Assembly: GCF_023705585.1 (NCBI RefSeq)
Contig: NZ_BOQE01000001.1
Location: 3,628,710-3,692,709 of the forward strand
From: Collibacillus ludicampi
GTDB lineage: Bacteria > Bacillota > Bacilli > Tumebacillales > BOQE01
Direction of reading: 5' to 3'
Length of the DNA: 64,000 bases
The notes under the pieces are model-generated. The model worked only from the letters and a program-made list of their open reading frames with translations. It searched no databases and had not been told where the DNA came from. Numbering within the stretch: the first letter of the stretch is position 1; the number at the start of each line of letters is the position of its first letter. Below are positions 6,691 through 56,030 of this stretch, piece by piece. A program made the position numbers and the translations under genes.

Positions 6691-6817
6691 GTAATGAACA
6701 CCCCGTTTGCAAGAAAACAAGTTTATTGTACCACACGCACCGCCTCCAGTGTGAAAAGAGGCAGGATGTCATTCTCTTTTTTGGAAGGATTCCTCTTTGC
6801 AGGGAAGAAACGAGCTT

Positions 6818-6885
6818 GAAAGTCGTCTCGCAACATCAGTCATGATTCACAGCGAGACGACTTTCACAGAGCATGAACGCAAAGC
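6818..6885. repeat. Palindromic repeat element, copy A (reduced)
   Basis: Arms GAAAGTCGTCTCGC (6818-6831) and GCGAGACGACTTTC (6852-6865) form a perfect 14-bp stem around a 20-nt loop. The right flank continues into GAGCATGAACGCAAAGC, which matches the repeat unit of copies B (32.4 kb) and C (55.6 kb). The left outer shell is missing. The only ORFs over it are repeat-derived frames. Confidence 0.8.
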
Positions 6886-6928
6886 CACGCCTACCGTACC
6901 ATTGATTTCCAAATTCGTTCTTAAGGCA

Positions 6929-9334: not shown

Positions 9335-9516
9335 GGGATTAGGTGATCGCCTAGAAATCTTCACCACGAAGATCCGATTAAAGGATGGGGGGCTGTCCCA
9401 ACATGACCCGATCAAACAAAAAGACCGCCTCACTCATCTGTGAAACGGTCCAAAAACATAGTGGCACTGCTTAGCGGAATCACCATGCTACAGTATCGTA
9501 GCAACTTGTCGTTCTA

Positions 9517-9766
9517 CCGGATATAGTTGAACCACTCGTATCTCTCGTTGAGCTTCTCAAAGATTGTAGGTTTAGATACCTCGGGTTGATTCGAAAGCTC
9601 GCTGACTTTTTTCTGTATCTTCTTAACCTCTACAGTATCGAGAACCTGTTCTGCTACTTTTTATAAACACCCTTTTCTTCAGACCGTACTCCATAGCCCA
9701 CCAATGTGGTTGAACGATTCATTCTTATAGTCCTCTTTGTGACCTGTCCTTTAGAAGGTATCAATT
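9517..9766 (-). pseudogene. Decayed copy of the 31.8-kb anchored-protein gene
   Basis: About 250 nt align closely with 32019-32284, the 5' half and upstream region of the intact 148-aa gene. Shared blocks include GTTGAACCACTCG, GTTGAGCTTCTCA, CTACAGTATCGAGAACC and TCCATAGCCCACC. The copy lacks the 3' half, has one T fewer in the CTTTTTATAAACACC block and a deletion over the signal-anchor start, so no frame is intact. A duplicate that has decayed. Confidence 0.8.
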
Positions 9767-14110: not shown

Positions 14111-15542
14111 CACTAGTGTTGCATAAATTATAACTGAATTTTCTGCGTTTTAATCTAATGCTATTTTAACAAAATAAGGACAGAGCACGTTAAAGGTAGC
14201 CCCGCCCATTTGGTATAATATGTATATTCTAAAAAGAAAGGGTTCCGTTACTGTCCTGTATTCTGGCATGCCGATTCATTGCTGAGATCTCTTACCTTCG
14301 CCTTTTTTTCGATGATCTATTGTACTTGAACCATTCTATGTAATCGCACCATAAGAAGGCCTTTAGACTTCGAAGCAACTCCAATAAGCTTTTGGTAGTT
14401 TGAATTTGCATCTTCATTAGAATCATCAGACAATAGGTGATCAAAGCAAGATACACTTGGTTCCAAACCGCCGTTTCGGAGAGACCATAAAACGTTTTGA
14501 TTCTCAAATGTTGTTTCATCCATTTAAAAAACAATTCGATTGCCCATCGTGTACGATATATGTCACTGATCTCTTCTGCTGACAAATCAAAACAGTTGGT
14601 AATAATTCTTATGTCATTGCCCTGTGAATCCTTTGCCTCGACCAGTCGAAGTACGTGATCCATGGGCTTTTGAGGGGATCCTAGCAACACTTTTGTGTCC
14701 GCAAGGACAGGACTCTCATGAAGCACTTGAGATTCCAGAAGGTAGAACGTTGCATTGTCCTTCAAACGGGTAACAAAGCCTATTCCCCTACGGCAATAAT
14801 CATCAAATTTCTTGTAATCGACATAACCACGATCAAACACATAGATGGCTTCCGAATCATCAATCAAGGAATCCATTTGTGTGATGTCATTAGGCTTCGC
14901 CGTCGTTAGACGAATCTGTTCAGGATAGACTTCATCATGATCGACAAATGCCAAGCTCACGTGGATTTTTATTCCCGCTTTGGTTTTCCGAAAGCTCGCC
15001 CAGCGGTATTTTGATAAACATAAACTGATCGTAGTTGAGTCTATGATTTTGTATGGCTTCCGCCCGGCAGGGTTAGCAGCCATGCATTGGATTTTTCCAA
15101 CTAAAGAAAAAAACAGATGAGCGAGTAGATCGGTATCCACCTGACGGTGTTTCCGTGAAAGTTGCGAATAGCTGATGGAATCTAATTGCAAGAATTCTTG
15201 CATATGAGGATTCAAGATATCTGCCGCAACGGCACGTAAACTTTCACGTTTTTGCAAGATGGCGTGCAGAAATAACAGGACGTAAGATTTCGTAGTAAGC
15301 TTCTTAGCGTATTTATCTTGTTGGTTTTGATCTACTTTTTCTTGAAAATTACACTGAAAAAGTGGTTCAACCCATTTACCAAATGCCGAAAGTAGGGTAT
15401 CCTTATCCTTGTCCATAAGTGTATTTCCTTTCAATGGATTTGGACAGGACTACCTGACCTCTCCATTGTAAAGGATTTTTTTATTTAAGAGATGAAAAAA
15501 ATAATAGAAGAATATTCTGAATTAATTAATGCAACACTAGTG
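14111..15542. mobile_element. Complete IS4-family insertion sequence, 1432 bp
   Basis: Terminal inverted repeats start CACTAGTGTTGCAT (14111-14124) and end ATGCAACACTAGTG (15529-15542), with imperfect similarity extending to about 35 bp. A perfect 9-bp direct repeat flanks it, and the transposase frame is intact. Insertion looks recent and the element may still be mobile. Confidence 0.93.
14292..15416 (-). CDS. IS4-family DDE transposase
   Basis: 374 aa from the ATG at 15416 preceded by AAAGGAAA; an in-frame TTG six codons upstream lacks a site. It has an N-terminal DUF4372-like region and an RNase-H-like core with first Asp in KIIDSTTI, second in VFDRGYVDY, and Glu in RTRWAIELFFKWMKQHL, the YREK-type signature of IS4. 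It cuts and pastes the element in which it lies. No frameshift or missing catalytic residue is seen. Confidence 0.92.
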   Translation of the reverse strand: MDKDKDTLLSAFGKWVEPLFQCNFQEKVDQNQQDKYAKKLTTKSYVLLFLHAILQKRESLRAVAADILNPHMQEFLQLDSISYSQLSRKHRQVDTDLLAHLFFSLVGKIQCMAANPAGRKPYKIIDSTTISLCLSKYRWASFRKTKAGIKIHVSLAFVDHDEVYPEQIRLTTAKPNDITQMDSLIDDSEAIYVFDRGYVDYKKFDDYCRRGIGFVTRLKDNATFYLLESQVLHESPVLADTKVLLGSPQKPMDHVLRLVEAKDSQGNDIRIITNCFDLSAEEISDIYRTRWAIELFFKWMKQHLRIKTFYGLSETAVWNQVYLALITYCLMILMKMQIQTTKSLLELLRSLKAFLWCDYIEWFKYNRSSKKRRR

Positions 15543-31804: not shown

Positions 31805-32251
31805 TTATTTATTGGCTGCCTGTTGCATAGCCCTCAATTCATCAGGTGTAAAGTGTGAAAGAACTTCTTGTTTCAGTCTATTTTTTTCTTCCGGTGTTAA
31901 ATTGTCTCGATTGGCATAGGCTACGGAAAGTTTTGCGAATTCGGTGGGTCCCAAGCGTTTCATGGCAAACTGAATGGCCTCTTCCCGATTCGAAAAAGAA
32001 GCCGTTCCTTGCTCACCGGATGTAGTTGAACCACTCGAATCACTCGTTGAGCTTCTCAGAGCTTGTAAGGGTTTCGATCCCTCGGTTTGATTCGAAATCT
32101 CGCTGATTTTTTTCTGAATCTTTGTGACCTCTACAGTATCGAGAACCTGTTCTGCTACCTTTTTATAAACACCTTCTACACCAGACCAGACTCCATAGCC
32201 CACCGATGCAAGTAAGAACAACGAGATGATCAAACGTTTCAATCTTATCAT
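31805..32251 (-). CDS. Membrane-anchored protein of unknown function
   Basis: 148 aa: one N-terminal helix (LKRLIISLFLLASVGYGVWSG), a polar linker rich in Ser/Thr/Gly (about residues 60-85), and a C-terminal helical domain with LTPEEKNRLKQEVLSHFTPDEL. A signal anchor with an outside C-terminal domain is likely. Family not recognised. A decayed duplicate lies at 9517-9766, so the gene has been copied within this genome. A strong terminator follows it. Confidence 0.6.
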   Translation of the reverse strand: MIRLKRLIISLFLLASVGYGVWSGVEGVYKKVAEQVLDTVEVTKIQKKISEISNQTEGSKPLQALRSSTSDSSGSTTSGEQGTASFSNREEAIQFAMKRLGPTEFAKLSVAYANRDNLTPEEKNRLKQEVLSHFTPDELRAMQQAANK

Positions 32252-32382
32252 CCCCTTTGCGACTTGTCCTTTACAAGGTATCGAATAACGATGAATTTTT
32301 CAAGTCTGAGAGACGATAAGCGGTGCCATCAGAGAATGAAAAGTTTCTTGTGCGGGAAGAAATATAAGGCTATCTCAAGAAA

Positions 32383-32640
32383 CGGAGTGGCTTTTGGGTG
32401 GGTTGTATCGCTTTGCGACGCAGAGGTGAGTTGAAGGTCGTTCCGCATCCATTGGCTGTATATGGGGTATATGCTTTGCGCGTAATAGCGACCTTGGAGG
32501 TCGTCTCGCAACAGATGATCATAATTCAGTGCGAGACGACCTCCACGGAGCATGAGCGCAAAGCATATACCCCAAAGACGACCTTCATCGAACCCAAGCG
32601 CAAAGCGATACACCCACCCAAGCACTAGTTTTCAAAATAG
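32383..32640. repeat. Nested palindromic repeat element, copy B (two shells)
   Basis: Four concentric stems: outer GGGTGGGTTGTATCGC-type arm 32396-32417 with 32609-32629; AAGGTCGT with ACGACCTT; TGGGGTATATGCTTTGCGC with its exact complement; core GGAGGTCGTCTCGC with GCGAGACGACCTCC around a loop of about 21 nt. In single strand it would fold into a 230-nt hairpin. It is homologous, in opposite orientation, to copy C. Frames across it on both strands are palindrome artefacts. Confidence 0.85.
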
Positions 32641-32653
32641 CCTAAGACGCCAC

Positions 32654-32896
32654 TCATGCGTTGGCGTCTTCAACGGAAACATAAACAGGACTTCCCGTGA
32701 TGTTTTTAATTCTCAGTGTATAATCATTTGGCTGCTTTTCCACCCATTTTTGTTCCACATAGCTTGCGGGATCCAAGAATCGTCCCTGATCTTGATCGAG
32801 TCGTACATGGATACGGTACGTATCGGAGGTAACCTGTTCATCCGAAAATTCGATCTCCTGATTGGGATATAACAATTTCATGTCCGTCTGTCTCAC
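32654..32896 (-). CDS. Small beta-rich protein, unknown
   Basis: 80 aa from GTG 32896 (GGGGG 8 nt upstream; the ATG two codons earlier is too close). Sequence such as EIEFSDEQVTSDTYRIHVRL and NDYTLRIKNITGSPVYVSVE alternates polar and hydrophobic residues, suggesting a small beta-sandwich. No signal or membrane segment. Not recognised. Confidence 0.5.
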   Translation of the reverse strand: MRQTDMKLLYPNQEIEFSDEQVTSDTYRIHVRLDQDQGRFLDPASYVEQKWVEKQPNDYTLRIKNITGSPVYVSVEDANA

Positions 32897-32950
32897 AAAC
32901 ATCGCCCCCTTTTATTGCCTAGTATGGACTTGAGAGCGTTTGAGTTATAC

Positions 32951-33821: not shown

Positions 33822-36800
33822 TTATGCTGCAAGCGCTGGTTGAACAGTTTGACCAAGCGAATTACCTGAATCGGATCTTTTCAATATCCTTGCGGAAATC
33901 CTTGTTACGGAACCGGACACTGCAAGAATAGCCACCCATTGCGGTAAGCCTAAAGCCACCGTTCCGAATATCCTTTGTAAACCTGGGATGTACATCGCTG
34001 CGAGAAGCGCCAGCCAAGATCCTCCCATTGCCAAGAACAGGGATCGATCTTTTTTCCCCGTCAAAGGTTTCGTTTCAAGATATCGCCAAGATACAGTCTG
34101 GATTAACTGACCGGCGACCAATGTTGCAAACGTCATGGTTTGAGCAATCGGGAGGGATAAACCGCTGGTCAAGGCGCCGACGAATACCCCGAGAGCGCCG
34201 ATCCCAAGAATTGTACCGCGCGTGAGGATCGTGCGATACAAGGAACGGTCAATCACATCCTGATGCCGTTCTCCCTCACCTGTTGATTGGGCATCGGTGG
34301 CCAAAACGATGGCTGGCAACGCATCCGTTAACAAATTCATTAACAGAATCTGCAAAGGTATGAGCGGTATAGGCAAACCGATGACGATCGCCGTCGTTGC
34401 CACGAATACTTCAGCCAAATTTCCGGTCACCAAACATCCGATGGCTTTGCGGATGTTGCCAATGATCGTTCTCCCCTCTTTTATGCCTGTGACAATAGAA
34501 CGAAAATCGTCTTCCATCAAAACGATACCTGCCGTATCCTTGGTGATGCCAGTCCCCTGACTTCCCATGGCGATTCCTACATCCGCTTTGCGAATGGCAG
34601 GCGCGTCGTTTACGCCATCTCCGGTCATGGCGACCACTTCGCCGCATCGTTGATAGGCTTCCACGATACGTAATTTTTGTTCGGGAGATACGCGCGCAAA
34701 TATCGATGTTTTCCTCACGAGGGTGTCAAGCTCATTGGGTGAAAGTCGCTCCAATTCTTCACCGGAAAGAATCCGATCCCCCTGCTTATAGATCCCTAAT
34801 TGTTTTCCAATGGCACAGGCCGTCACAGGATGGTCACCCGTTATCATTACCGTCTTGACCCCCAAACGACGAGCTTCTTCAATACTTGCGGCCACGTCTT
34901 CTTTAACAGGATCCATCATACCCATGAGTCCTACGAATATTAAAGCTTCATCGGAGACGTCAGCGAGATTCTCCCCATCCTGAACCGGACGATATGCAAA
35001 ACCGAGCACACGGAACGCTTGTTCTGCCATGCGTTTGTTTTCTGCCAGGACATCTTCGCGCACTTCTTCTGTCAAATCCAGGATTTCTCCATTCTTACGA
35101 TAATGCGTGCATTTGCGCAAAATCACTTCCGGTGAGCCTTTCGTCAACACAAGACAGTTCTCGTTTGTTTCGATACCTTGACAAACGACACTCATACTCC
35201 CGTTTTTCGAATCAAAAGGAATTTCTCTGTGGCGTTTCCAGGTTTCCTGACGCAAACCAGCTTTTTTCGCGGCGACAAAGATCGCCGCTTCCGTCGGATC
35301 CCCGATGGGAATATATTTCTCTTCCCTTTTTTCAATCGATGCATTATTACATAGCAAACCGATCGTGAGCAATTGCCGGATGTCATCATCCAGCTGATGA
35401 ACAGGAATGAAAACGCTCTCATCAGACGAATAAAATTGACCTTCGGGAATATAACCATCACCCGTTATGCGGACACGCCTCCCCACAGTGGCCAACTCTT
35501 TCACCGTCATCTCGTTTCGCGTAAGCGTTCCTGTTTTATCGGAACAGATGACCGTTATACGTCCAAGGGATTCCAGACTTGCTAATTTGCGCACAACCGT
35601 TTTTTTCTTCGCCATGCGCATCACCCCGGCCGTAAGCGCGATCGTAATGGTTAACGGGAGGCCTTCCGGAATCGCGGATGCAGCCAATGTGACAGCAGAC
35701 AAGAGCAACTGCACAGGGGGCATCCCGCGCAAAAGTCCTGCTGCAAGAACGATTCCGCCTGCGATCATGGCACCTGTAACAAAATGTTTCCCCAGTTGTG
35801 ATACACGCATTTGCAACGGTGTTGGCGGCTCTTCCCCCTGATGTAACAGATCTTGCAGAGCGCCGATTTGGGTGCTTTGTCCCGTGGCAACAACGAGAGC
35901 TTTCGCGCGACCTCGAGTGATAAGGGTGCCCATATAGAGCAGATTGCTTCGTTCTGCCAACGGTGTTTGCGGCGCCAGAGGATTGGATTGTTTTGCAACA
36001 GGGACCGATTCGCCCGTGAGCATGGCCTCATTCACTTCCAAGTTCGAACATTCCAGAATGCGCAGATCGGCAGGCACGAAATCTCCTGCTTCAAGGTAGA
36101 CCAGATCACCGGGAACCAATTCCTCCATCGAAACCAATTGTTCGGTTCCGTTTCGCACGGTTTGCACAAGTTGATTGTCTTCGTTCTTCAGAGCTAACAA
36201 GACTTGCGCGGAACGTAATTCCTGCCACGTTCCAATCAAAGCGTTCACAACCAGTATGCTTCCCATGCAAAATGCATTAAAGCTTTCTCCCATCAAAAAA
36301 GACAGACCAGTCGCACCGAGAAGAGTCAGCGTGGAGAAATCTTTAAATTGACTCAAAAACACACGTACAGGATTCGGTGGAGGTGTTGCTTGCAACCGAT
36401 TGAACCCAAATGTTTTCTGCTTGAAAGACACTTCGGCGTCCGTCAGACCGGTGGAATGACCCCCGACCGCTTTTATTACGTCCGCTTCTTCCATGGTGTG
36501 AAAGAAGCTACCGTTATCAGAAAAATTTAACCTTTTCTTTTCTTCTTCTCTGCTTGCGGAAACATGTTCCCTTTTGCCGTTTTTGCCGAAACGTTGTTGC
36601 CATTTTTGCCTGGATAAAAGAAACAAACCGACCGTGTCGGCGAGTAAATTGACGAATGGTGCGGTAATGGGGGCCATCAACGCCAATCCAGTTCCCATTA
36701 CATTCCAAGTTTTTACCACACGCAGATCACGTTTCACTTGTTCTCTTACCTCAGTACAATATGCAAATACATCATCCAATTTGGATGCATCCGCTAGAGA

Positions 36801-38366
36801 TAGGGTTACGAGGTTGGGGTGGTCGATTGAAGAGTCAGGCTCTCCGATCAACAGTACAGGATGGCCTTCTTCCATCTCCTGCTTCAGTTCGTATACAGTG
36901 ATCATACGGAACGGACACGGTAACCTTTCCTCCCGTTGAAGACAGCGAATCAAATACCCCTTTTTTTCCCATCTCTCGATGCTATCACGCCAAGGTGAGG
37001 AGACTTTTTGTTTGCATCCAAACAGGGCGAGGATTTGACCGTCTTGAACGAGGAGATGGACTTTACATCCGCTGCGGCGCATGCGCCGTTCTTCCAAAAG
37101 TACTGGAGTCAAATCGATGTCATACGTAGAGATGAACGCTTTCGTTCCCAATAGGATCTCATTGCCTCCAACGATCCCCCGTATCCCCTCCTCAGTTTGT
37201 TCCACTTGAAAGGGGGTACGCAATGTCCGTGCTTCCTTTGCAACGGCTTCCAGAAGCGGGGAACGCAGCGGATGATCTTCTACTTTCTTTAATAGAGATG
37301 CCGCCAGGGTTATCGCTTTATCTTCTTCAAGCCCGCTCTGAACAACGCGAAGTGTCCATTCTCGACTGTCTTCGTGAAGATTCGTTCCATCTGCAAAAAC
37401 GATCGTTCGTGCAGACGCGAGCGTTGAAAGATTCCCCTGTTTGGGAACAGGAAGTTTTCTCGCAAACATTTCATGTTCTGCCTCCGACCATGCATGTCGA
37501 TGCGCAAGTTGCGCGGGACGCGGATTAGCAGCCAGAAGCACCCCCAATGATCGCAAGGGGCTTCTTGTAACAAGAAGTGATAACGATGCCGTCCAAACTC
37601 CGAATCGGCTCATCTTGTGGCTATGCCGGTCGATCTCCGGATCATAAGTGATCTTAGAGTCCATAGGAGGCAAAACGTTATAACGACGATACATCGCCAT
37701 GTTCATCAACGTAATGGCGGAGAGAGCGATCAAATTTTCGCGCAGTGCCGCTAAACTGATCGCAGCCATATTAAAAAGCAGTTCCGGATTTGTACTTCTT
37801 TTTCCGATCAATCCTTCAATCGCGCGGCGCACCATTGGGTAACCCGCCGCGATGGCGAAGCCTGCTGCTGCGTAAAAAGGTAAGGGAGCAGAAGCAAGCA
37901 GCGATCGTCCGATTAACAATCGTTTTAAGGATAGTCCACCCAGAAGACAAAGTGACGCCGCTGCGGTGGCTCGGTACGGGTTTGTCGGTCTAGCATCCGG
38001 TTGGACGTTCGTTTGTGAGATACGATGAACGCCTTTTTCTTGAACCGCGGGATATCCCGAGAATGTTGGAGGGATTGCCATCACTTCTTTTTCACTAGTT
38101 GCCGCGATTTGAGAGTGTGTATCTGACAAAGGAGAACCGGTGGATACCAAGAGTCTTACCCGGTTGATCAACTGATTCTCCGTGATGTCATTCACATGGT
38201 ATCGAATTAACGCGCGACCGGTATTCGCATTGCATTGGATTTCCTGTACGCCTTGAATCCCTTTTAACGCCATTTGTAACGTTTGGGACACATATGGATT
38301 TTTGCGCATCATGGGAATGTCCAGACGTAGACGCCCCGGCAAACGATGCAAGATCGATACTTGCAA
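33822..38366 (-). CDS. Giant P-type ATPase: degenerate ATPase fused to a Ca-type cation ATPase
   Basis: 1514 aa from TTG 38366, which has AAGGAGG 7 nt before it; the open frame runs 28 codons further. The N-terminus resembles an HMA_2 domain (HRLPGRLRLDIP). Residues about 110-600 look like a worn-out P1-type ATPase: the phosphorylation motif is degenerate (FADGTN near 322 instead of DKTGT). From about 640 a full PII-type pump follows: LTGESVPVAKQ near 783, AIPEGLP, SDKTGTLT near 942, TGDHPVTA, and GDGVNDAPAI near 1248. It likely moves Ca2+ or another divalent cation across the membrane. Layout recalls mycobacterial CtpI. Confidence 0.88.
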   Translation of the reverse strand: MQVSILHRLPGRLRLDIPMMRKNPYVSQTLQMALKGIQGVQEIQCNANTGRALIRYHVNDITENQLINRVRLLVSTGSPLSDTHSQIAATSEKEVMAIPPTFSGYPAVQEKGVHRISQTNVQPDARPTNPYRATAAASLCLLGGLSLKRLLIGRSLLASAPLPFYAAAGFAIAAGYPMVRRAIEGLIGKRSTNPELLFNMAAISLAALRENLIALSAITLMNMAMYRRYNVLPPMDSKITYDPEIDRHSHKMSRFGVWTASLSLLVTRSPLRSLGVLLAANPRPAQLAHRHAWSEAEHEMFARKLPVPKQGNLSTLASARTIVFADGTNLHEDSREWTLRVVQSGLEEDKAITLAASLLKKVEDHPLRSPLLEAVAKEARTLRTPFQVEQTEEGIRGIVGGNEILLGTKAFISTYDIDLTPVLLEERRMRRSGCKVHLLVQDGQILALFGCKQKVSSPWRDSIERWEKKGYLIRCLQREERLPCPFRMITVYELKQEMEEGHPVLLIGEPDSSIDHPNLVTLSLADASKLDDVFAYCTEVREQVKRDLRVVKTWNVMGTGLALMAPITAPFVNLLADTVGLFLLSRQKWQQRFGKNGKREHVSASREEEKKRLNFSDNGSFFHTMEEADVIKAVGGHSTGLTDAEVSFKQKTFGFNRLQATPPPNPVRVFLSQFKDFSTLTLLGATGLSFLMGESFNAFCMGSILVVNALIGTWQELRSAQVLLALKNEDNQLVQTVRNGTEQLVSMEELVPGDLVYLEAGDFVPADLRILECSNLEVNEAMLTGESVPVAKQSNPLAPQTPLAERSNLLYMGTLITRGRAKALVVATGQSTQIGALQDLLHQGEEPPTPLQMRVSQLGKHFVTGAMIAGGIVLAAGLLRGMPPVQLLLSAVTLAASAIPEGLPLTITIALTAGVMRMAKKKTVVRKLASLESLGRITVICSDKTGTLTRNEMTVKELATVGRRVRITGDGYIPEGQFYSSDESVFIPVHQLDDDIRQLLTIGLLCNNASIEKREEKYIPIGDPTEAAIFVAAKKAGLRQETWKRHREIPFDSKNGSMSVVCQGIETNENCLVLTKGSPEVILRKCTHYRKNGEILDLTEEVREDVLAENKRMAEQAFRVLGFAYRPVQDGENLADVSDEALIFVGLMGMMDPVKEDVAASIEEARRLGVKTVMITGDHPVTACAIGKQLGIYKQGDRILSGEELERLSPNELDTLVRKTSIFARVSPEQKLRIVEAYQRCGEVVAMTGDGVNDAPAIRKADVGIAMGSQGTGITKDTAGIVLMEDDFRSIVTGIKEGRTIIGNIRKAIGCLVTGNLAEVFVATTAIVIGLPIPLIPLQILLMNLLTDALPAIVLATDAQSTGEGERHQDVIDRSLYRTILTRGTILGIGALGVFVGALTSGLSLPIAQTMTFATLVAGQLIQTVSWRYLETKPLTGKKDRSLFLAMGGSWLALLAAMYIPGLQRIFGTVALGLPQWVAILAVSGSVTRISARILKRSDSGNSLGQTVQPALAA

Positions 38367-38429
38367 ATGGCTCCCTCCTTTCCGTGTTGTTTTCGGACTA
38401 TAATATGTACGAATTTCAAAGACTTTATG

Positions 38430-38462
38430 AAAAAAATCAACTTCCTTCATGGAAGGAAGTCT
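38430..38462 (-). terminator. Terminator or attenuator before the P-type ATPase gene
   Basis: On the minus transcript ACTTCC and GGAAGT head a perfect long stem (38440-38460), followed by a U-rich run. It follows the glycine-zipper gene and precedes the ATPase gene, so the two may be expressed at different levels. Confidence 0.7.
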
Positions 38463-55430: not shown

Positions 55431-55618
55431 AAGATCACCCCAGTTTTACAGTTACGTCCCCATAACAATCAAAAAACGTTGTTGCGACATACGCGTTGAT
55501 TCGTCGCCTCTGCTCAACCACCAAACCTTTGTAAGTACATATTATAAATCAAAAATTCTAAATATACTATAAAAGAGAGAAAAAAGATTGACATATCTAA
55601 AATATTTGGAATCCAGAG

Positions 55619-55975
55619 TATGAGTGCTTGGGTGGATGTATCGCTTTGCGCTTAGGTTCGATGAAAGTCGAACGGGCATATGCTTTGCGCTCATGCTCCG
55701 TGAAGGTCGTCATTGCGGGCATATACTTGGCGTTCATGCTCCGTGGAGGTCGTCTCGCTTGGAATATGCTTAGTTGTTGCGAGACGACCTCCAAAGTCGC
55801 TGTTTCACGCCGAGTATATGCCCCTTTAACGTTCCAAAGGAACCGAGACGACCTTCAAAGTCACTATTACGCGCAAAGCATTTGCCCTATTAACGGTTTA
55901 AAGGAAGCGGAACGACCTTCAACTCACCTCTGCGCTGCAAAGCGACACAACCCACCCAAAAGACACTCCGTTGCA
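55619..55975. repeat. Nested palindromic repeat element, copy C (three shells)
   Basis: Outer arms 55630-55651 with 55937-55957. Shell one: GGGCATATGCTTTGCGC 55674-55690 with 55871-55887. Shell two: GAAGGTCGTC 55702-55711 with 55847-55856, and 55717-55733 with 55807-55823. Core GGAGGTCGTCTCGC 55745-55758 with 55779-55792. One shell more than copy B and in opposite orientation. 55431-55618 shows nothing; ORFs over the element are artefacts. Confidence 0.85.
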
Positions 55976-56030
55976 TTAGGAACCTTAAAATCTCTTTAAC
56001 GGTTTAATCCGGATTTGAATGAACAGAGAC

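Follow-up and report, generated by a model that had tools for sequence, protein, structure and literature searches.

Dispersed palindromic repeats built from nested hairpin shells in the genome of Collibacillus ludicampi

The BOX element of Streptococcus pneumoniae follows the layout boxA-boxBn-boxC, in which the middle module varies, and its copies are inter-inserted and partly transcribed (PMC3049150). REPs of the GTAG and CGTC kinds are 20-40 bp in length, carry a tetranucleotide tag and are mostly located between tandem or convergent genes; some of their families have no known transposase (PMC3733652). Bacterial MITEs, including Nezha, Correia/NEMIS and ERIC, are short, non-coding, strongly folding and dispersed sequences that are presumably moved in trans. 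Template switching at quasi-palindromes yields mirrored arms and can produce double compensatory changes in a single step, thereby acting as both the maker and the keeper of perfect stems (PMC8794818).

The repeats described in this study resemble each of these repeat systems in part. Like BOX, they are modular interspersed hairpins with a variable number of modules, are restricted to one lineage, occur in clusters and are inserted into each other, a likeness in modular layout. BOX is linear with a varying middle module, whereas these repeats consist of concentric layers that are matched on both arms, and neighbouring layers are of different subtype. Like REPs and REPINs, they are high-copy extragenic palindromes found mostly between tandem and convergent genes; however, their hairpins are nested and measure approximately 115 bp to 221 bp and more, and on length alone they fall outside the 20-40 bp palindromes with a GTAG or CGTC tag. 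They share with bacterial MITEs a short, non-coding, high-copy, strongly folding and dispersed form and presumable movement in trans, and differ from them in having no terminal inverted repeat at the very ends, in that no significant general target-site duplication was detected, and in that no parent IS was found. No description of repeats with concentric shells was found in the open-access literature, and one may exist elsewhere.

The window, namely, the whole stretch of 64,000 nucleotides that was analysed, covers positions 3628710-3692709 of contig 1 in a 4.09 Mb genome. Two copies, B (32383-32640) and C (approximately 55609-55990), are both present in the window and are mutually inverted. 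An earlier note on this DNA had described the two copies as oppositely oriented, with equal cores and outer arms and with two shells in B and three in C, and all of these features were seen. The core GGAGGTCGTCTCGC, the outer arms and the unequal left and right spacers are common to both copies, and the conserved spacers give the element a defined left and right, as had been claimed. The layered structure that the note described was also recovered; however, the layers are not repeats of a single unit, given that the outermost shell (GGGTGG.TGTATCGCTTTGCG) is a module distinct from the inner shells (GGGCATATGCTTTGCGC). Folding of copy B as RNA, a check that had been proposed, gave -143.6 kcal/mol compared with -73.3 +/- 4.7 kcal/mol for dinucleotide shuffles (z = -15).

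Copy B is located on the minus strand and extends past the marked span, with its tail reaching left to approximately 32318 and its leader ending at 32640. The 3' tail (modules SP and LK, partial) was placed at 32318-32395 by module BLAST and copy comparison, and module BLAST located the outer right arm (AR, 32396-32441), the core loop (K1, with the stem CTCGC/GCGAG, 32505-32535) and the outer left arm (AL, 32578-32619). The core loop is flanked by the inner right arm (BR, 32465-32504) with its conserved unpaired internal loop and by the inner left arm (BL, 32536-32572) with the conserved unpaired TCATGCTCCGT internal loop. Copy comparison identified the leader (CTAT.TTGAAAACTAGTGCTT, 32620-32640) as the left end of the element. 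Copy C is located on the plus strand and consists of a hairpin (55630-55957) with a leader and a short tail. Its degenerate leader (55609-55629) forms the left end according to copy comparison, and module BLAST placed the outer left arm (AL, 55630-55671), the second-shell left arm (BL, 55674-55710), the second-shell right arm (BR, 55848-55887) and the outer right arm (AR, 55912-55957). The innermost left arm (BL, TTGGCGTT subtype) covers 55717-55753, followed by the core loop (55754-55783) and the innermost right arm (BR, GCTGTTTCACGCC subtype, 55784-55823). A third, decayed copy on the plus strand (6803-6900) retains only the core hairpin CTTGAAAGTCGTCTCGC..GCGAGACGACTTTCACAGAGCATGAACGCAAAGC. 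Among the other genes of the window is a P-type cation ATPase of 1542 aa (33822-38450), which contains an HMA_2 domain and whose N-terminal part is unusually long.

BLAST of the genome with copy B returned 92 matches, all of which were on contig 1. A genome-wide search with the 14-mer core (≤1 mismatch), a check that the earlier note had named, gave 153 + 172 = 325 matches compared with 0 for the reversed pattern, thereby revealing many further copies. Approximately 870 kb were examined, comprising the window, 20 stretches of 20 kb at even spacing and the surroundings of matches, and 170 clusters with 174 hairpins were recognised therein by module BLAST and targeted fetching. Fetching was guided by pattern matches except for the evenly spaced 400 kb sample, in which 15 core hairpins provide an unbiased estimate of approximately 150 per genome; all counts are from one assembly. 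Ten modules were marked by BLAST, namely, the arms AL/AR, CL/CR and BL/BR, the loops K1 and K2 and the tails SP and LK. Module borders were drawn by the analyst from the copies, and gene calls were simple ORF calls. In another stretch (L075, 10588-11873), two coding-like tandem repeats with CCTGGTCCCACCATA and ACCACAGGGCGTCGC units were noticed, which perhaps belong to surface or spore-coat proteins.

With AL placed first, the element is composed of leader, outer arm, inner left arms, core loop, inner right arms, outer right arm and tail. The leader is of A type (CTAYCTTGAAAANTAGTGCTT) or C type (CTAYCTTGAAAATGTGTAGTTT, also given as ..TGTGTAGTTT), and the tail terminates in GGCATGGGGGRCTA. 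Each hairpin is made up of an outer shell A or C, 0-2 (rarely more) inner B shells and one core loop, and copies with one to three matched layers, rarely more, were found. Inner left arms (0-4 per copy) are approximately 43 bp each, shorter than the inner right arms of approximately 64 bp each, in the window copies as in the family. Each shell consists of two paired blocks parted by unpaired internal loops of approximately 12-16 nt that are unlike between the arms; these loops (TCATGCTCCGT / AAAGTCGCTATTAC) are the best-conserved part of the element, mostly at approximately 97-100%. The commonest forms were A1 (AL K2 AR, 34 copies with a recognised loop), A2 (AL BL .. BR AR, 28), C1 (26), C2 (16) and A3 (7). 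With a single exception, K2 is used in one-shell A copies, and K1 in C1 and multi-shell copies. Copies also occur in arrays, most frequently in the order C then A.

The mobility proposed in the earlier note gained support from the approximately 170 copies in unrelated flanks. Element ends are sharp, and hairpins of 100% identity (1.000 over 115-118 bp) are found at different loci with unrelated upstream flanks. Two loci hold copies within older copies: at 1448300-1448900 an inverted C element has its right arm split by an A2 element that is bordered on each side by ACTTTGAA, and a further C element, at 1151350-1151950, is split by an A-C pair that is bordered on each side by CCTTGA. The identical hairpins in unrelated flanks and these two insertions indicate that copies have moved, and the sequence comparison suggests movement within one genome. 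Ancient, immobile and vertically inherited repeats that are homogenised by inter-locus gene conversion, with no transposition, would fit the finding of no mobilising gene and the higher identity of hairpins (1.0) than of tails (0.74-0.95) in several pairs, as if hairpins had been converted without their tails. We consider this explanation rather improbable in view of the copies within older copies with target sequence on both sides, the sharp ends and the restriction to one genome of its order.

At 75 ends, target-site duplication reached p values of 0.05-0.14 at the in-register offset, which falls short of significance for a general duplication, and the very ends CTAYCTTGA.. (left) and GGCATGGGGGRCTA (right) are not inverted repeats; thus, a cut-and-paste MITE model is not proven. 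The segments 9516-9706 and 32015-32208 were compared as a possible empty site, and their homology fades before the element edge. These segments are paralogous (84-91% identical), and the second is the 5' part of a 148-aa ORF adjoining copy B.

The proposed spread of copies between genes would depend on a trans-acting enzyme. A RAYT-like gene, which the earlier note had suggested seeking, is absent from the assembly: Y1_Tnp (PF01797) had 0 matches in this genome, while 5 of 14 control genomes were positive. Movement of RAYT/REPIN-type elements by a Y1 tyrosine transposase is consequently very improbable; the copy number, palindromes, intergenic siting and tandem/convergent bias do resemble those of REPs (PMC3733652), but these elements are several times longer, and the enzyme has no match in the genome. 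No element modules, and no terminal inverted repeats shared with an IS, were found at the IS4-like (PF01609), rve (PF00665), TnpB (PF07282) and RT loci, and derivation of the family as a MITE from an IS was rejected as the IS4-like, rve and TnpB loci lack modules. Over a short length, the IS4-like end resembles the A leader in reverse complement; this resemblance was attributed to chance, because neither the C leader nor many of the A leaders show it. The IS4-like IS at 14111-15542 (PF01609 ORF at 14292-15434, minus strand) has 34-bp inverted ends CACTAGTGTTGCATAA and six identical copies in the genome. Within the window copies, no Rfam intron was matched, and the copies are too short to hold a transposase.

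Retrotransposition with 5' truncation was rejected as well. Lone arms at 577075, 751731, 857960 and 2309971 had hinted at polarity; left-only and right-only arms numbered 19 and 13, respectively, which does not support polarity, and the RT belongs to a group II intron whose locus carries no element modules. This locus (1738190-1740814; L150 6191-8815) has group II intron signatures with RT matches in two ORFs (230 and 229 aa) and is perhaps a broken or doubled intron. A glmS ribozyme and a c-di-AMP riboswitch are located within the same 16 kb.

A search of relatives, likewise suggested in the earlier note, found zero copies of the family in the rest of the order (13 genomes) and in 27 further genomes of the class, and none in the plasmids and viral contigs searched. 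The core hairpin pattern was compared with 84,980 species genomes, a set that may leave out the genome of the window itself, and retrieved only five single stretches in unrelated bacteria, which are read as chance or convergent hairpins. The family thus appears restricted to one bacterium so far, among searched sets that contained no genome of the same genus or family and thus no true empty site. In two other genomes of the order, no nested-hairpin repeats were detected within 200 kb each. A relative in the order (genome G004; stretches L162, L164, L168 and L170) has a palindromic repeat of its own, which is approximately 160 bp long, has the ends AGTGYGTGTTCAAAAAGTGG and TACTTTTTGAACATCCTCT and is not nested.

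The two arms of a hairpin correspond closely in number and sequence. Among the 139 complete hairpins whose outer arms are of like type, 116 had as many units on the left as on the right, compared with 55 after shuffling (maximum 72). Across all copies, 4839 of 5093 stem pairs were Watson-Crick pairs, compared with 4632 +/- 12 when right arms were shuffled. Double changes are frequent and include transversion pairs, such as T-A to A-T (61/14) and T-A to G-C (61/10), with few intermediates. Such covariation counts run too high where a subfamily has spread following a single double change, and only the comparison of nested with crossed partners controls for this effect: in the ten copies with two B shells, nesting partners pair at 96.3% of stem positions compared with 80.8% for crossed partners of the same copy. 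This comparison was made within copies, and it is therefore not explained by subfamily history. Perfectly mirrored inner shells were present in two copies: at 2711426 the right arm reproduces the left, and at 621721 the left arm reproduces the right. We infer that these mirrored shells are the signature of arm-templated correction, probably through template switching. Each arm would serve as a template for correcting the other during replication, thereby keeping the arms complementary. The earlier note had proposed that the element is copied as a hairpin; this was not demonstrated, and what was seen is arm-to-arm correction. The conversion of imperfect arms into perfect mirrors and the double changes that preserve pairing are similar to quasipalindrome template-switch mutation (PMC8794818, PMC7202029); that process has been described for mutation at individual sites, whereas the present case would preserve its record throughout a family of nested natural palindromes.

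Selection for the folded form in transcripts possibly also helps to keep the arms complementary, and the genomic context bears on this point. The elements are intergenic, with both flanks open on the same strand in 47 of 149 elements compared with 1089 of 1500 random points, and stop codons and ribosome-binding sites are often found right at their edges. Of the elements between tandem genes, 74 run antisense to the genes when read AL-first, and 22 run sense. This bias was 60:16 for genes co-directional with replication and 14:6 for head-on genes (weak, p = 0.12); replication strand bias alone was rejected, because orientation follows the genes in co-directional and, weakly, in head-on pairs. 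Copy C has the majority orientation, and copy B, located between 32654-32902 (minus strand) and 31805-32251 (minus strand), has that of the minority. Mismatches on the favoured transcript strand are more often G.U than A.C (105 vs 50). However, 33 of the 105 G.U cells come from three columns and unpaired sites lean alike (G>A 1.3% vs C>T 0.8%), and mutation bias thus weakens the excess as proof of RNA function, leaving RNA-level selection on the elements possible. A structured RNA whose hairpin acts in transcripts through stability, RNase III, attenuation or spacing, with RNA pairing as the selective force on the arms, would account for the orientation relative to flanking genes, the siting of the edges, the G.U lean and the conservation of the unpaired loops. 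This explanation appears doubtful, although it is the most serious of the alternatives, because a quarter of the tandem-gene copies, including copy B, are reversed, no Rfam match was obtained in the window, and template switching better explains transversions that are compensated with no G.U intermediate.

Arm-templated correction may maintain matched shells, and the subtypes of the shells suggest how nesting arose. The innermost-shell consensus of A3 equals that of C2 in both arms, and 7 of 9 A3, 13 of 17 C2 and 5 of 32 A2 copies carry the diagnostic pair (A2 vs C2, p = 8e-5). In A3, the second shell bears the C-like right loop GCTGTTTCACGC. A3 may accordingly be viewed as an A shell around a C2-like hairpin. 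Adjacent shells are no more alike than random shells (left, 0.87 vs 0.89; right, 0.80 vs 0.87), and this result, combined with the match of the A3 innermost shell to the C-type core, suggests that shells were combined and not duplicated. The growth mainly by shell duplication suggested in the earlier note is therefore not supported as the main route; duplication of a unit does occur occasionally, as in the copy at 708230 with four identical left units in succession. Stepwise tandem duplication in one arm followed by mirroring into the other would explain this copy, the left-rich and right-rich unbalanced copies and the mirrored arms. It is an unlikely general route and is disfavoured for balanced copies, in which adjacent shells are less alike than random ones (0.85 vs 0.89; right shells, 0.80 vs 0.87), and a mirrored left unit would equal 43 bp, whereas right units are approximately 64 bp and have their own spacer. 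The main source of nesting would be the arrival of a whole C-type hairpin or core within another hairpin, with tandem duplication of one arm's unit seen occasionally. We tentatively propose self-nesting, in which whole hairpins of one type favour another hairpin's loop as the site that they enter or replace, and become matched shells, such that palindromes grow from the inside and arm-templated correction keeps the shells paired.

Taken as a whole, the element is neither an IS nor a REP, in agreement with the earlier note, and is a dispersed element whose copies vary in shell number. Given that the search for a RAYT was negative and no parent IS was found, the family is classified as an unusually modular variant of MITE/BOX-type repeats. 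Our main reading, to which we assign a probability of approximately 0.62, is that these are lineage-restricted, non-autonomous dispersed palindromes of the MITE/REPIN/BOX kind composed of interchangeable nested shells, which are spread by an enzyme, nested by the capture of C-type hairpins and corrected between arms by template switching. The manner of assembly cannot be read from most palindromic repeats of bacteria, which are too short or too uniform; in this one genome, there are approximately 170 copies to compare. One-, two- and three-shell copies, unbalanced copies, mirrored arms and hybrid cores occur side by side and form a natural record of palindrome assembly. Template switching and RNA selection as sources of compensatory stem changes, and the movement of high-copy palindromes without RAYT, are both testable in this single organism. 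If true, self-nesting capture would add a new route to the evolution of mobile palindromes.
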